Shown here in pieces: positions 19,745 through 59,498 of a stretch of DNA of 64,000 nt. The stretch lies in NCBI GenBank assembly GCA_958299035.1, contig CATQJL010000223.1, positions 53,922,302 to 53,986,301 on the forward strand. Direction: 5' to 3'. The notes under the pieces were generated by a model. The model was not told where the DNA came from. It searched no databases and saw only the letters and a list, made by a program, of their open reading frames with translations. Position numbers and translations under genes: made by a program. The number at the start of each line of letters is the position of its first letter. Positions within the stretch are counted from its first letter, which is position 1. This DNA is from Cylicocyclus nassatus (Eukaryota; Nematoda; Chromadorea; Rhabditida; Strongylidae).

Positions 19745-20690
19745 TAGCTTGCTTACCCGGCTCCGCTCGGCCCTTTCAAAACACTGTAATAAAGGTCTCA
19801 TTCCCATCCCTATCCCTGTACAGCTTTTCCCTGTGCCCAATTCTACACTTCATTTCCCGTTTCCTGTGTTGTTTTCGAAATCAGCATGCCCACTTACCCC
19901 CTACCCCTGTGCCAACTCCCAGCCCTTCAGCTCAAATTTTGAAAAAATCGATAAAATCGGTAAAAGTAATGTGTAGTACCAAAAACTAATATTTTATTCG
20001 TGATCAGCATGCTCGATTACCCCCCTTCCCCCTATGCTAACTCCCAGCCCCGTAGCTCAAACTTTGCAAAAAAATCGATAAAATCGATAAAAGTAATCGA
20101 TAATTTTAGAAACTAATATTGTATTCGGAATCGCAATGCTCACTTGCCCCCCCCCCCCCGAGCCAACTCCCAGCCCCGTAGCTCAAACTTTGCAAAAAAT
20201 CGATAAAATCGATAAAAGTAATCGATAATTCTAGAAACTAATATTGTATTCGGAATCGCAATGCTCACTTGCCCCCCCCCCCCCGAGCCAATTCCCAGCC
20301 CCGTAGGTGAACTCTGCAAAAAAATCGATAAAAATCGATAAAATCGATATTAATCGATGACGAAAAGTAGCCTATGACTGTGTGCCAAGTTTGGTCTAAA
20401 TCGGTCCAGAAATAAAAATTTCTATTCCGCACATATCGTCCATTCGTTGTCTGTACGGATCTGTACGGACTGGACATAACCGCGGAGCATGCGCCTCGAG
20501 GTAAAACGCTTGCTCCGATACAAACTCGCCATTGTTAAAATCGTGCTCTCGCAACATTTTGACCGCGCCGCGCGTGGTCCGTAGCGTTTGAGCAGTCCGT
20601 ACGGCCAACGAATCGACGATACGTACACACAGACATACAGACATACAGACATTCAGCTTTATGTATAAGACTAGCGACCCTACGGGTCGC
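19745..20690 (+). repeat. Minisatellite-bearing dispersed repeat, single-orientation copy
   Basis: It begins CTAGCTTGCTTACCCGGCTC and ends in a (ACAGACAT)-type run followed by TTATGTATAAGACTAGCGAC. Inside are about four tandem units of roughly 120 bp, each with CCAACTCCCAGCCCCGTAG, AATCGATAAAATCGATAAAA and a C run (13 C at 20147-20159 and at 20272-20284). A perfect 8-bp hairpin (AGCGACCC-TAC-GGGTCGCT) lies at 20673-20691. The second copy at 41719-42790 is an inverted pair. The class is unknown; the terminus resembles widespread non-LTR or Helitron-like repeats, but I cannot place it. Confidence 0.65.
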
Positions 20691-41718: not shown

Positions 41719-42790
41719 AGCTGGCTTACCCGGCTCCGCCGTATCCGGACCAAACTTGGCACACATACACTTCGGGCCCCGGCGGGTGTCACAGTCCACT
41801 TTTCGTTATCGATCGATGTCGATTTTACCGATTTTTATCGATTTTTTTTGCAGAGTTCACCTACAGGGCTAGGAGTTGGCACAGGGGGGTAATCGAGCAT
41901 GGGGATTTCGAATACAATATTAGTTTTTAGAATTATCGATTATTTTTATTGATTTTATCGATTTTTTGTAAATTTTGACATGCGAGGCTGGGATTTTGCA
42001 CAGGGGGGTAATCGAGCATGCTGATTACGAACACAATATTAGTTTTCAGGATCGTCCATTACTTTTATCGATTTTATCGATTTTTTTGTAAAGTTTGACC
42101 TGCGGGGCTGGGAGTTTGCACAGGGGGTAATCGAGCATGCAGATTACGAATACAATATTAGTTTTCAAGATCGTCCATTACTTTTATCGATTTTATCGAT
42201 TTTTTGAAAATTTGAGCTAGGGGGCTGGAATTTGGCACAGGGGTGTAATCGAGGATGCTGATCACCCCCCTCGGGGATGATCAGCATGCTCGATTACCCC
42301 CTGTGCCAACTCCCAGCCCCCTAGCTCAAACTTTGCAAAAAATCGATAAAATCGATAAAAGTAATCGATAATCCCGAAAACCAATACTGTATTCGGAATC
42401 CCCATGCTCGATTACCCCCCTGTGCGAACTCCCAGCCCCGTAGCTCAAACTTTGCAAAAAAATCGATAAAATCGATAAAAGTAATCGATAATCCCGAAAA
42501 CCAATACTGTATTCGGAATCCCCATGCTCGATTACCCCCCTATGCCAACTCCCAGCCCCGTAGGTGAACTCAGCAAAAAAATCAATAAAAATCGATAAAA
42601 TCGATATCGATCGATGACGAAAAGTAGCCTATGACACGCGCCGGGGCCCGAAGTGTATGTGTGCCAAGTTTGGTCCGGATCGGTTCAGAAATGGAATTTT
42701 CTATTCGGAACATACGTACACACAGACATACAGACATACAGACAGACATACAGACATACATACAAACAGACATTCAGCTTTATATATAAG
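41719..42790. repeat. Inverted pair of minisatellite-bearing repeats
   Basis: The left half (41719-42262) is the reverse complement of the right half (about 42265-42790): GGACCAAACTTGGCACACAT on the left against ATGTGTGCCAAGTTTGGTCC on the right. Each half has several units of about 115-120 bp with ATCGATTTTATCGATT or its complement and CAACTCCCAGCCCC. The right half ends in an ACAGACAT run (42718-42775) and TTTATATATAAGA. It is a head-to-head version of the repeat at 19745-20690. Confidence 0.7.
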
Positions 42791-47374: not shown

Positions 47375-48655
47375 TCTTTTTGATGGTGGAAAGTTTTTGA
47401 AAATCACAAAACGTCATTTAGAAAGTTTCTGTGCGAGTACTGTGTAAGTTTTCTTGAACTGCAATTATTCACATAAAAGTGCAGAAAGAGTAAAGAAGGA
47501 ACGAAGACCATTGTGATCTAGTCAGGGCAGATGTTGCCGCTTTTTTCTTCAACAATAATTTCGGCTGCTTTTTTGATTCCATAATCTCATTGCGTTTAGT
47601 GCAATTCTTTCAGTGAGATACAATCTATAGCTCTCTGTTACTGACGCCTCTGCATTACAGGAAAAGACGGAAGCGACAAGAAAGTGCGCGACAAGCATCA
47701 AACCGTTGCTTGAAATAAAGTCTTTACAAAAGGAAGACCTAACAGTACAAATGTCAGGCCATTTTAAGACGTATTGATTTTTAGGTTTTTCCTAGGTTTT
47801 TTCACTGTATTTGTTCCATAAACAATACTGTCATCTCATTGCGCAAAAAAATCATAATTCTTCGATGCACGTCCGAGAATTTATTACCATTCACATAACA
47901 AGCAATCAACTTGATTCATGTAAACGATCGACATGTAGTTGGCCCCACATCAAAAGCTAACAACACAATGCTATCCATGGTGAATACTTTCACATAGCAT
48001 GGATAACAAGTAAAGACGTATCGAATATCGATTAAGAAACGGAAAATCATGTTCCAGTTGACATACGACCCATCTCCTAGAAAATGCACATCAATGACCC
48101 ATAGAGTTAACTAATGTAAGATGCAAAGCTATTAGAAGAAAACTACCTGCAGAGACATAAGTCTCCAAAGAAAGCACTTGCAGCTGGGATTTCATTGTAG
48201 GGCCGTAACTATCGACTCATGAACGTAAACGTTCACGGCGATGGACATTTTGATTGCTCAACTCTGAAGTTAAGAGATTTCGCTCACTTTACATGGTATT
48301 ATCCAAAAACAGGATTTTCCTTAGCATCTTCATTCAACTCATCATTCACTAATCGAACACTTGGCTAATCCGAAGGTGAGATGGGACATGGAGGAGGAAA
48401 CTTCCTAATAAACTTAGATTGAAAACTCTGTATAAGAGTAACTTGTTCGTCCTACTTCATTACAAACTCTATTTCGAAAATTTACTTACACGTTGTTCCA
48501 CTTCACATGCACTTCCCTTATCATCACCAAGATAAAGCAAAGAAAAAAGGCAATGCTGCGCCAGGTTAGCTAAAAAAATATTGAAGCAATATGAAAGCAG
48601 GGGTATCAAGCAACGGTATCATTTTGGTAGTGATTATTTTCTTTGTGCGAAAAAT
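47375..48655. other. Intergenic stretch, nothing recognised
   Basis: No feature could be supported here. Confidence 0.4.
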
Positions 48656-49262
48656 GTCCAAACTTTTCCAAAGCTTTTGATAGAGTAGACATTCCCAAAT
48701 TGATTGAAAAGCTTTTTGGAGTGGGAATTCGTGGCCCTCTTTTGAAATGGCTCTCATCTTATTTGTCTGATAGAACCTTTTCCGTCCGCTGATTCTGCTA
48801 CCTCTTCGATTTTCCCAGCAACAAGTGGTGTGCCACAGGGTGAGTACTGTCCCCTGTCCTTTTCAATATCTATACAAGCGATCTTCCTAGCCTCCTATCT
48901 ACCGACAACAGAGTTAAGATTATGGCCTATGCTGATGACATCAAAGTATTTGCATCATATACTGATGCTGATAGGGAGGAAGTAACATAGTGCCTGCAAA
49001 ATTCAGTGCATAATATGTTGCACTGGGCAACTACAAATAATATTGATGTAAACTTAACTAAAAGTGCTTGCTTGACTATCACAAGAAAAAGAGTGGATAA
49101 ATGCACTTTTGAAGATTATGGGGACTCTGACACCTTCCTCCCTAGACCTGAACTTATAAGAGTCCTTGGAGTTCTGGTGGACCATGACCTTCGACTTAGA
49201 TCCCATATTGAGAAAATAGCACGTGCGGCCCTGCACAGAATGTTTCTCTTGCTGCGTAACTT

Positions 49263-49848
49263 CTCAGATAATCGCCGGGGGCAGGCGGTCCGCAAACTCG
49301 CGCTTTTCTGCAGGCGTTTAGCAGAATTTTGGGGCGCAGCCAAACCTTCAGCGGGCGGCACTTCCTTTACGGTCGCATATTCTGCCAGCGGGCAGCAATA
49401 CAGCATTTTTTGCAAGCGCTCGGCAAATAATTTCTTTCAGCGAGCGCTGGCCAAACTTTCAGCAAGCGTTCGGACTCTTTTTACGCATTTTCGGGCGTAC
49501 CGAGCACAGGTAAGACTCTGTGTGGCAGAGGTGTCACCGTTGGTTTAATTACTCAATGTTGAGGTACTTTCTCTCAGCGGAAAGTACCTGGGGGCTGCGC
49601 GGTCCTCCACAAAGGACCGTGCGGCCCCCGAAAATTTTGCATATTCTCGCGGAAGTCCGCGAAAATGTGGCCACTGCGCCGCAGCTAATCTATAAGGAAG
49701 CCGCGATTGTTCTCCAAGCATTCGGCCAAAATTTCGTTAAAATTATTCCAAATTTCTGCAAGCGGACCGCAAGAAATCAGCGAACTATTTTTCCGGTGCG
49801 CGCTTGCTCAAAATTCGCATGGCCGCCTGCCCCCAGCGATTATCTGAG
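49263..49848 (+). mobile_element. SL1-bearing element, copy 1 (inserted in the LINE)
   Basis: Inverted ends CTCAGATAATCGCCGGGGGC and (from the right) CTCAGATAATCGCTGGGGGC bound a 586-bp unit that splits the LINE reverse transcriptase. The unit is colinear with 58901-59498: the SL1-like 22-mer starts 279 bp from this end here and 318 bp there, and the difference is explained by a 40-bp tandem duplication in copy 2. It has no open frame of its own; readings such as SDNRRGQAV are shadows. The TSD is unclear because the ends are palindromic with their flanks (TT...TTG). The class is unknown. Confidence 0.7.
49542..49662 (+). ncRNA. Spliced-leader-RNA-like sequence (SL1-like), copy 1
   Basis: The 22 bases from 49542 begin GGTTTAATTACTCAATGTTG and match nematode SL1 at 19 of 22 positions. 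They are followed at once by a GT donor (GAG|GTAC at 49564). Then come a perfect 10-bp hairpin holding the donor (49562-49571 with 49580-49589, 8-base loop), a 17-bp hairpin (49590-49606 with 49613-49629, two G-U pairs), an Sm-like site AATTTTGC (49633-49640) and a 6-bp tetraloop hairpin (49647-49662). Leader, donor in stem I, stem II, Sm site and stem III is the known order of nematode SL RNAs, and about 121 nt is near their usual 100-110. The sequence beyond the leader does not match C. elegans SL1 RNA as I remember it. It may be a functional variant, a pseudogene or transposon cargo. Confidence 0.5.
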
Positions 49849-51198
49849 TTGAGGCATGCTCTTGAGAATGTTTGCATTAGAACGTATGTGGCTTATGTCC
49901 TTCCGCATTTAGATTACGCTAGCCAAGTATGGAGTCCATTTATAAAAAAAGATATTCTGACCTTAGAGAAAGTCCAGATGACATTTACTCGTATCCTGTT
50001 TTATAGACTTTTTCCTAATGACAATTACCCTGCTGGCAGGTTGCAACGCTTGAAACTCCATAGTTTGCTTTACCGAAGGGTGATGGTCGATTTAGTCCTT
50101 GCGTTTCAAATCATACGTCTTAAGACCAAACTTTTGCCCAGTGAATTTTGGGTGTGGAAACCTTGCCATGGACGGACAGGTAGATTTAACTTTTGTTGTC
50201 CTGTAACGGAAACTTCTCAACTTTCAAATGCGCTTTTTTCGCAATTCCTTTTTTGTTCGCACTGCACGGTGGATGGAAAAATTACCAGATTCCGTCTTGT
50301 CTCCTGCTAACTCAAAAACCTTTAGAGAAAAACTTTTGAAATGCGATATTTTGAGTTTGTTAGGAATTGACGGGTCTGATTATTTCTAGATGTTTAAGCC
50401 CCTTTTTCTTATTGTTTTTTTCTTTTCGCTTTTCTTGTCTGTGTCCTTCCAGATTATGGCTGAGCTTCTGTTGCCTGCTCGTTTTGGCGGTTGCACTTCT
50501 GTCATAGTCTTTAGTCTGAAATGCTTGCAAGGGAGTTTAGCTCATTCTTCTCTTTTGGCTGTTTTTCCTCGTTTTCCTTTTTCAGATCCTTGCTCTCGGT
50601 TGGCCTCATATTTCGACCCTATGTTTGACAACTCACGTTGGGCTGGTGATTCAGTGCATAACTTTGCTTTAGTTCGTTGATAGATAGTCCGTTTTGTTCA
50701 CATGATAGTTTTCTGTTGATTTTGCTTATCTCTAATGGAAGTTTGATCGGGAACACATTTGTACGGTTTGAGTCTAATTTTCTTTGAGTTTATCTAAGGC
50801 TAGCCTACGAAGACTGCCCAAGCATATTTATTCTCGAGCTAATTTCTATTCATCTCTAATGAGCTTGTGGCTCATCCAGTATGTCGGTAGCGCGGAGGTT
50901 GCCTAGTTTTGTTGAGCTAGCATACCCATTTTCATTTTCATTGTCTACGTCATACTCCTGGAAACTAGGTGGCTTGCTGGTCGAGCGAGGGTGGCATGCC
51001 CGAACTCATGTGAACAATTCTTATGGCAGCTTCTAGTAGCTAAACCTTAATGCCTTTTCTATTATATTGGACCTAGATCGAAGAATGTCCCTATTCGATA
51101 AAATTTGCTGTAGTACTTTTTCTGTTGTTTGAGTTCTAACACTGGTTTTTTCTCTCATCTGCTAGTTACTAATTTGCTGTTGTAGCGTGCCTTTGGCG

Positions 51199-51201
51199 TA
51201 A

Positions 51202-51268
<67 letters not shown>

Positions 51269-51270
51269 AT
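51199..51270 (+). repeat. (AATA)n tail of the LINE
   Basis: About 17 AATA units follow TTTGGCGT and mark the 3' end of the LINE. A second, shorter AATA/AATG run at about 52180-52203 lies beyond the Penelope fragment, suggesting that element inserted in the tail. Confidence 0.85.
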
Positions 51271-51310: not shown

Positions 51311-52176
51311 TTATGTATTGTGTGTTCCTCTTGTGCCGTACAGGTTGGTAGGTGGTCCTTTATTAGTCAGTATCAACGGCCTTACGTTTCAACGCTTTCG
51401 TCTTCGTCAGAGGCCTAGAATGGTTCTGAGTTTCATCAGTGAGTCCAGCCCACCAAATGTCTCCCCTAGTTCTGCCAGTTTTCGGCCTTCACCCGATCTA
51501 GTTGCCACAAAAATTGCGAAAGCAATGATATACCAGGGAACCACCGCTTCGTCATCATCATCACACGTTACATTGGGGAAACAGGAAGAATGCTTAGCAT
51601 TCGCGTAAATGAACATCTTGCAGATAAAAGACGAAAGAACATGGCTTCAACGCTTGGCAGACATAGGCGCGTGGCGCATGGTGATGAAGATTTTGACATC
51701 AAAGTCACGATTCTAACATTTGAAGAGGAGATCTCAGCTAGGAAAGCTATGGAAGCCTTCTGGATTTCTGCGAGGAATCCAGAAATGAACAACAAAAACG
51801 AATGTCTATCAATAACCGCTGACTTTCTCCCGTTTATATCATTATGCGAGTTATGACTGTAGATCATTTACCATCCAAAACAGTATAACTCATTCGTCCG
51901 TCGCGACCGTCTCCTTCCGGTACGGACATCTGATATCGAAGCGGTGGTTCCCTGGTATATCATTGCTTTCGCAATTTTTGTGGCAACTAGATTGGGTGAA
52001 GGCCGAAAACTGGCGGAACTAGGGGAGACATTTGGTGGGCTGGACTCACTGATGAAACTCAGAACCATTCTAGGCCTCCGACGAAGACGAAAGCGTTGAA
52101 ACGTAAGGCCGTTGATACTGACTAATAAAGGACCACCTACCAACCTGTACGGCACAAGAAGAACACACAATACATA
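51311..52176 (+). pseudogene. Penelope-like retroelement fragment with inverted terminal repeats
   Basis: Inverted arms (51311-51551 and 51938-52176; TTATGTATTGTGTGTTC on the left, mirrored at the right end) surround a plus-strand frame of about 95 codons ending at 51856. It reads YIGETGRMLSIRVNEHL, then FEEEISARKAMEAFWI, then NPEMNNKNECLSIT. This is the C-terminal GIY-YIG endonuclease pattern of Penelope-like elements (GIY-YIG half, conserved R and E, ARK.xEAFWI tail). The reverse transcriptase is missing. Penelope copies are known for inverted as well as direct terminal repeats. The arms hold hairpin blocks (GGCCTTACGTTTCAACGC...). It looks inserted in the LINE's AATA tail. Confidence 0.7.
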
Positions 52177-58900: not shown

Positions 58901-59498
58901 CTCAGTTAATCGCTGAGGGCAGGCGGAGACCGGAAAAATAGTTCGCTGATTTCTTGCGGTCCGCTGGCACAAATTTGGAATAATTTTGGCCAAATTTAAG
59001 ACGAACGCTAGGAGAACTATCGCGATTTTTCTATGGATAAGTTGCGGCTTAGTGGCCGCATTCGGACCTTCTACGACAATATGCAAAATTGTTGGGGGCC
59101 GCACGGTCCTTTGTGAAGGACCGCACTGCCCAGGGTACCTTCCGCTGAAATAATGTACCCCAAACTCGGGCGATTTAACCATCGATAATACCTCTGCCAC
59201 ACAGAGTCTCACCTTTTCTCGGCGTACGCCCGAAACTGCGTAAAAACCTCACATTTCCTCGGCGTACGCCCGAAAGTGCGTAAAAAGAGTCCGAGCGCTT
59301 GCTGAAAGTTTGGCCAGCCCTCGCTGAAAAAAATTATTTGCCGAGCGCTTGCAGAAAATGCTGGTTGCTTCACGCTGGCGGAACATTAGGCAGTAAAGGA
59401 AGTACCGCTCGCGAAGGTTTGGCCACGCCCCAAAATTCTGCTGCCTCTTGCAAAAAAGCGCGAGTTTGCGGACCGTCTGCCACCGGCGATTATCTGAG
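58901..59498 (-). mobile_element. SL1-bearing element, copy 2 (inverted)
   Basis: The right end, reverse-complemented, starts CTCAGATAATCGCCGGTGGC and the left end starts CTCAGTTAATCGCTGAGGGC, so the ends are inverted copies. Read on the minus strand the unit aligns throughout with 49263-49848 (GGTCCGCAAACTCGCGCTTT, CAGAATTTTGGGGCG). It has a private 40-bp tandem duplication at about 59218-59290 (GGCGTACGCCCGAAA twice). The different flanking DNA from copy 1 shows it is dispersed and not a segmental duplicate. Confidence 0.7.
59061..59180 (-). ncRNA. Spliced-leader-RNA-like sequence (SL1-like), copy 2
   Basis: On the minus strand from 59180 the 22 bases begin GGTTAAATCGCCCGAGTTTG, 17 of 22 identical to SL1, and are followed by a GT donor (GGG|GTAC). 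A 6-bp stem I (GGGTAC/GTACCC), a long stem II (about 59094-59130, GTGCGGTCCTT/AAGGACCG core) and the Sm-like AATTTTGC (59090-59083) are kept. Stem III is weak. Every SL1 position changed in one copy is intact in the other, so the ancestor of both copies was probably SL1 itself. This copy looks more decayed. Confidence 0.4.

Follow-up and report, generated by a model that had tools for sequence, protein, structure and literature searches.

A MITE-like DNA transposon with an SL1-like RNA unit in the genome of Cylicocyclus nassatus

The genes for spliced leader (SL) RNAs are generally regarded as clustered or tandemly arrayed. Cut-and-paste DNA transposons without a strong site preference are marked by a short target site duplication that is fixed in length and varied in sequence. 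Two described systems connect small RNA sequences with mobile DNA. Families of snRNA and SL RNA pseudogenes have been reported to behave like mobile elements, with SL RNAs found dispersed (PMC4233971), and the Tm1 elements of root-knot nematodes are described as including MITE-like members, some of which have a histone hairpin (PMC3169594).

A 64,000-nucleotide stretch of Cylicocyclus nassatus DNA (contig CATQJL010000223.1; hereafter the window) contains an element that resembles several known systems and differs from each of them. Like the nematode SL1 RNA genes (Rfam RF00198, and the 680-bp units of the host itself), it has a leader identical to SL1 at 21 of 22 positions, followed by GT, the string GGTAyTTTCT, a U-rich Sm-like site and a 3' hairpin, in that order. 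In contrast to the host SL1 genes, the unit is dispersed by a transposon and not arranged in arrays, its donor pairs with downstream sequence and not with the leader, its hairpin II is long and GC-rich, its Sm-like site ends in GC and not GG, it is without the complete upstream element, and it scores 18.6 bits with RF00198, out of register, against 37.5 for the host. MITEs are the other close relatives: the element is 586 bp long, with terminal inverted repeats (TIRs) of 26 bp, 2-bp duplications, no coding capacity seen and a high copy number. What distinguishes it from other MITEs is its cargo, a structured RNA unit of the small nuclear type.

Tm1, too, is a family of nematode transposons that includes MITE-like members, and some of these bear a known RNA motif, but the accessible part of its description gives it composite TIRs of the foldback type, 9-bp duplications and a histone hairpin, and mentions no spliced-leader cargo (PMC3169594). 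The pseudogene families likewise consist of small nuclear RNA genes as dispersed repeats; however, these are described as copied through RNA (PMC4233971), whereas the TIRs and 2-bp duplications of the element point to DNA transposition. A DNA transposon with an SL RNA unit was not described in the literature searched, which was mainly open-access and in part available as excerpts (including PMC3169594, PMC4233971, PMC7986045, PMC4054779, PMC7652881, PMC3315495 and PMC6362198).

The carrier transposon and its SL1-like unit

The sequence-only reading of the window had placed an SL1-like leader inside a dispersed element, and this can now be sharpened to a discrete MITE-like unit (Table 1), which begins with the inverted repeat CTCAGATAATCGCCGGGGGCAGGCGG. 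For a test of the duplications, 30 best-copy loci were fetched and both ends were located in 22. At 21 of these 22 loci the same 2 bp stand on both sides of the element, identity over 3 bp was seen at none, and the duplicated dinucleotides vary (TT, TA, TG, AA, CA, GG, AG and CG). TIRs combined with 2-bp duplications of varied dinucleotides suggest DNA transposition by cut-and-paste, with no strong preference for a target sequence. No stop-to-stop frame of at least 130 amino acids lies wholly within the element; two such frames enter it from the flanks (48991-49548 and 49741-50310). The TIRs, the fixed-length duplication and the many dispersed, near full-length copies without coding capacity are those of a MITE. 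A first look at the assembly (514,686,895 bp, or 514.7 Mb, in 369 contigs, several of chromosome size) yielded 1995 candidates with a query from the centre, 1977 with the left part and 2620 with the left part of the older copy in the window, all of them rough counts with about 40 candidates scored per query.

Table 1. Features of the element, of its SL1-like unit and of the insertion site in the window
Feature	Position	Strand	Basis
MITE-like non-autonomous DNA transposon with SL1-like RNA unit, 586 bp	49263..49848	+	TIRs, boundaries and TSDs in 30 loci, full-length alignments
Left terminal inverted repeat, 26 bp	49263..49288	+	96% complementary to right arm
Right terminal inverted repeat, 26 bp	49823..49848	-	pairs with left arm, 25/26 bp
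Target site duplication (TSD) TT, left copy, 2 bp	49261..49262		locus L001, the window copy
Target site duplication (TSD) TT, right copy, 2 bp	49849..49850		locus L001, the window copy
SL1-like leader	49542..49563	+	19/22 in window copy; 21/22 in family majority
GT splice-donor dinucleotide	49564..49565	+	directly after leader; aligned GT in 39/40 copies not selected by leader
Hairpin I, 11 bp, spans donor	49562..49589	+	minimum-energy fold; arms 49562-49572 / 49579-49589
Hairpin II, 17 bp	49590..49629	+	minimum-energy fold; arms 49590-49606 / 49613-49629
Sm-like site AATTTTGC, last base C, not purine	49633..49640	+	sequence; host SL1 has AATTTTGG
Hairpin III, 6 bp and tetraloop	49647..49662	+	fold; arms 49647-49652 / 49657-49662
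Second, older element copy, TT-flanked	58901..59498	-	full-length alignment; leader GGTTAAATCGCCCGAGTTTGGG at 59180-59159
Decayed LINE-like reverse transcriptase, left part, interrupted by element	48637..49262	+	RVT_1 matches, YADD motif
Probable right part of LINE reading frame	49851..50307	+	open to 50307; position and LINE motifs

The leader of the window copy has three mismatches to the SL1 22-mer and is the sole match in the window at three mismatches or fewer; shuffled sequences gave 0.00 such matches, in agreement with the claim that the match lies far above chance. The succession of leader, GT, three hairpins and AATTTTGC within 49542-49662 was likewise borne out. The minimum-energy fold of these 121 bases (-63.7 kcal/mol, z -8.0, as low in 0 of 200 shuffles) contains both the 17-bp hairpin and the 6-bp tetraloop hairpin, with AAAATTTTGC unpaired between them. 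It also contains the hairpin at the donor, with 11 bp where 10 had been counted. The further claim, that the parts stand exactly as in SL RNAs, is right about their order and wrong about the pairing: the donor pairs downstream here and with the leader in SL1. The family's usual hairpin III has 12 bp, against 6 in the window copy, which is decayed and atypical, with private changes beyond those of the family leader.

The leader of the family is GGTTTAATTACTCAAGTTTGAG, which is exact in 25 of the 29 other best-matching loci (L002-L030); three loci differ from it by one base, and the remaining one (L024) has a deletion. It is SL1 with C at position 12 changed to T (C12T), a string that was in no paper found in the literature searched, mainly open-access. 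This T12 leader followed by GT is present in exact form at 1047 sites in the genome (511 + 536), and exact SL1 followed by GT at 470, SL1 arrays and LTR elements included; the reversed control gave 0 in both cases. The transposon has thus made more copies of a leader with its donor than the assembly has exact SL1 sites with theirs. All 20 of the T12 sites that were fetched, drawn from the first 100 of the 1047 places and all on contig C1 (one chromosome), are the MITE-like element, and 17 of the 20 keep an AATTTTG-like run as defined by a script pattern. In several older copies the leader reads GGTTTrATTACCCGAGTTTGGG or nearly so.

Relationship to the host SL1 RNA genes

Where does the centre of the element come from? 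The host SL1 gene consists of the leader followed by GTATTTTCTAGATCTGACTCAATCAAATGATTGTGGTCTGATAAAATTTTGGATATCTC, and two stretches outside the leader are common to it and to the element. The first, GGTAyTTTCT, lies at the donor; the second, AAAATTTTGsATAT(T)CTC, lies at the Sm site and the start of hairpin III. The local alignment of the post-leader part, with the leader excluded, scores 26 over a short stretch, which was reached in 3 of 2000 dinucleotide shuffles. Because the similarity to the host array genes runs past the leader, descent from SL1 RNA is well supported, and a common descent of the element centre and host SL1 RNA is very likely from these alignments. The mRNAs of Haemonchus contortus are described as having canonical SL1 and SL2 leaders (PMC7652881), and canonical SL1 is therefore the likely ancestor of the element leader. 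An element of this kind would offer a route for SL genes to become dispersed.

The host SL1 genes form 680-bp tandem units at two loci, L043 and L045 (C1, about 30.14-30.17 and 31.61 Mb). Within L043, SL1 is the sole Rfam match at E<=1, with no 5S rRNA; unlike these units, the SL1 genes of C. briggsae are described as 5S-linked (PMC7986045). Exact SL1 leaders are also present at L044 (G000:C1:31164600-31167100), where they are followed by GTACCT, or in one unit by GTACGT. These leaders lie in tandem and inverted units of about 80 bp, upstream of TATA-like boxes of two leftward frames, one of which is rich in arginine and glutamate. The leader context at L044 resembles that of the MITE.

Does the unit have the features of a working SL RNA gene? 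The 22-nt leader is followed directly by GT. The Sm site consensus is given as purine-A-U4-6-G-purine (PMC6362198), and the 3' purine is absent from the element, which has AATTTTGC or AATTTTTGC, with C after the G in 38 of 40 copies, against AATTTTGG in the host. The donor pairs with the leader both in the Rfam SL1 structure and in the host SL1 fold; this stem is not in the best fold of the element, where the donor lies in the 11-bp downstream hairpin, and a short leader-donor stem is possible.

The full upstream element derived from U1 and U2 genes was not found in 10 copies (scores -15.8 to -4.4, P 0.19-0.96), while the same model gives the host SL1 gene a score of 7.3 (P 0.003). The model comprised 21 of 31 U1/U2 regions, after removal of seven near-duplicates and of L140, L143 and L148, which scored poorly. 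It replaced a U1-only model, which had missed the host SL1 gene too (-1.0 at -55). A GTACG core, as is found upstream of U1 and U2, lies at -49 to -51 of the element, with P 0.006-0.031 in seven of the 10 copies and 0.068-0.249 in the other three; the host SL1 core has P 0.139.

A fold check against Rfam SL1 had been proposed, and it gave 18.6 bits (E 0.6), out of register, with RF00198; copies L017 and L002 yielded nothing for SL1 at E<=1. The test discriminates poorly because the host SL1 array genes also fall below the gathering score (37.5 of 75 bits), and the Rfam score was rejected as a diagnostic.

Since the 3' purine of the Sm site, the leader-donor stem and the full upstream element all fail, the unit is not filed as a functional SL RNA gene. 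Its sequence and the succession of its parts resemble those of an SL RNA gene, and the probability that it makes a working SL RNA appears low. The sequence-only reading had proposed an SL RNA gene or variant carried by a transposon, or a derivative of one. Its SL-derived and transposon-carried parts hold (TIRs, 2-bp duplications, SL1 similarity beyond the leader and about a thousand copies), and that the gene is a working one appears unlikely.

Constancy among copies and alternative readings

Copies selected by their leader would be a biased sample of leaders, and 40 copies were chosen by the left flank alone (20 of 43 and 20 of 40 places listed). The exact leader is present in 28 of these and leader plus GT in 27; the aligned GT is kept in 39. 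Shared variants were counted in 38 copies, L094 (rearranged) and L116 (leader replaced) being dropped; a related analysis of 20 copies dropped L094 and L102. Variants common to at least three copies number 0 over the 24 sites of leader plus GT and 60 over 205 flanking sites (Fisher p=0.0009, or p=0.0007 against the downstream flank alone, with variants treated as sites). There are 2 over 24 sites in the remainder of stem I, 1 over 10 in the Sm site and 2 over 26 in stem III; leader, stem I, Sm site and stem III together have 5 over 84 (p=5e-6, variants again treated as sites). Stem II, with 10 over 41, is flank-like. Leader plus GT has the second-lowest diversity of 322 overlapping alignment windows, and the lowest lies in hairpin III.

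Singletons tell of what happens after insertion. They number 0.375 per site in leader plus GT, 0.388 in the upstream flank and 0.58-0.85 downstream, and the fraction of copies with intact leader plus GT (27/40) compares with 0.69 expected from the private mutations of the 38 copies. Inserted copies decay as if neutral, and leader and donor were preserved in the parent lineages. A control 24-mer immediately 3' of stem III, without known role, is exact in 900 places against 1047 for leader plus GT; it was picked from a well-conserved stretch after the alignment had been viewed and is a strict control. Because this 24-mer is kept nearly as often and stem II varies like the flanks, the constancy of the SL-like part may partly reflect recent shared ancestry. 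The expectation that the SL parts would be kept above the rest of the element thus stands for shared variants and is weakened by the control 24-mer. An earlier comparison (0.90-0.93 for leader, stems and Sm site, 0.86-0.91 for inner flanks, 0.94-0.97 for TIRs) mixed subfamilies and copies close to selected ones, and was replaced by the copies found by left flank. Covariation in 31 copies is hardly above that of shuffles: the count of paired cells was reached by 61 of 500, both-side-changed pairs by 70, both-side-changed cells by 25, pair types by 47 and the score by 88.

Past trans-splicing may also leave traces in the genome. The C12 or T12 leader is not followed by G in 127 places, 100 of which were listed (30 T12 and 70 C12). 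All 30 listed T12 places were fetched: 26 are the element with a changed donor, three are LTR elements and one is doubtful (L059). The 17 C12 places fetched out of the 70 comprise 14 that are LTR-like, two that are ambiguous (L050 and L065) and one clear SL1-tagged retrocopy (L055), in which a 5' UTR and then an open frame without introns come after SL1; we take this frame to be an elongin-B-like gene. An SL1-like 22-mer (at most two mismatches) stands at 98 LTR junctions of the set examined; C12T occurs in four of them and is no commoner than other transitions (A6G five, T5C four). These genomic traces, retrocopies and LTR leaders alike, show no excess of the T12 leader.

The best explanation is probably a MITE with a passenger unit derived from SL1 RNA, most copies of which are silent or unused in trans-splicing. 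The transposon anatomy, the copy number, the similarity to host SL1 RNA and the constancy at the level of lineages are direct observations. A nematode MITE would have taken in an SL1 RNA gene, or the part from leader to stem III, and cut-and-paste by a transposase acting in trans on the 26-bp TIRs would have brought it to about a thousand sites, or more. Leader, GT, hairpin I, the U-rich Sm-like site and hairpin III would have stayed near-constant in the lineages that produce copies, while each inserted copy, presumably inactive, decays as if neutral.

Could the SL RNA unit of the element instead be an active gene? In that case snRNA-type machinery would transcribe some of the roughly 1000 copies, and their RNA would bind Sm proteins and donate the T12 leader to mRNAs. 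The AATTTTG-like site kept in 17 of 20 leader-selected copies, the zero shared variants in leader plus GT and a GTACG core at -49 to -51, which the host SL1 core does not outscore, would all fit such a gene. It is nevertheless unlikely: the full upstream model gives P 0.19-0.96 in 10 copies against 0.003 for host SL1, the Sm site is without its final purine, the donor lies within the 11-bp downstream hairpin, C12T is at 4 of 98 LTR junctions and no commoner than other transitions, 30 T12 sites include one doubtful case (L059) against a clear SL1-tagged retrocopy among 17 C12 sites, and covariation hardly exceeds that of shuffles. That some copies make working SL RNA, with part of the message 5' ends encoded by a transposon, is quite unlikely. 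Expression of even a few copies would give a mobile element a role at the starts of messages; without any expression, a thousand decoy donors are tolerated by the genome, and transcript annotation that relies on SLs has to take them into account in this species.

A different reason for keeping the SL-derived centre, such as a DNA hairpin used in transposition, a source of small RNAs or quasi-palindrome correction, is also unlikely. Young copies have CTCAAGTTTGAG and several old ones CCCGAGTTTGGG (with one G.T pair), a complete palindrome where SL1 has one mismatch, and the hairpins are very stable; however, stem II, the most stable of them, varies more than any other part of the unit, and the both-side pair changes are reached by 70 of 500 shuffles. 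Origin of the leader-like 22-mer and its context by chance is rejected as next to impossible: copies of one ancestor count once, so that copy number is no independent evidence, but shuffles and genome-wide reversed controls gave 0 matches and the similarity to host SL1 RNA extends to the donor flank and the Sm site with stem III.

SL1-bearing LTR elements and the insertion site

LTR retrotransposons of the genome (L031-L042 and the C12 loci of L046-L075) carry SL1 as an exact 22-mer, in many cases directly downstream of an AATAAA-like signal. One SL1-bearing LTR type is found in 98 places. An CGCGTGGCA-like string, likely a primer-binding site, lies within about 100 bases in 22 of the 29 SL1-bearing LTR loci fetched, and pairs of SL1-LTR sites that point the same way match each other like two LTRs, over 688 bp at 99.6% or over 1075 bp at 98.3%. 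The R region of the LTR may begin with SL1, as if trans-spliced RNA ends had been copied into the LTR. Ascaris Tas is said to be an older case of SL1 in an LTR. Titles and abstracts of the literature searched contain no report of SL1 in the R region of an LTR, and the mRNA of Cer1 is described as SL1 trans-spliced (PMC3315495).

The insertion in the window interrupts a LINE-like frame. RVT_1 matches 48844-48987 with E 2.4e-6 and 27.8 bits, just below the cut-off of 29.6, and 48637-48789 with E 0.008. The stretch 49851-50307 has no Pfam match, and its position and LINE motifs make it the probable right part of the LINE frame. Two further features were noted by eye. An AAAT/TAAA run at about 51200-51270, some 0.9 kb past the last open LINE frame, is possibly the 3' tail of the LINE. 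Two inverted arms near CGTTTCAACGCTTTCGTCTTCGTC and its complement, at about 51385-52105, likely belong to a foldback or composite repeat. Tandem repeats of 119-125 bp with ATCGAT and C runs occupy 19869-20343 and 41823-42600, and units that look similar by eye are present in L044.
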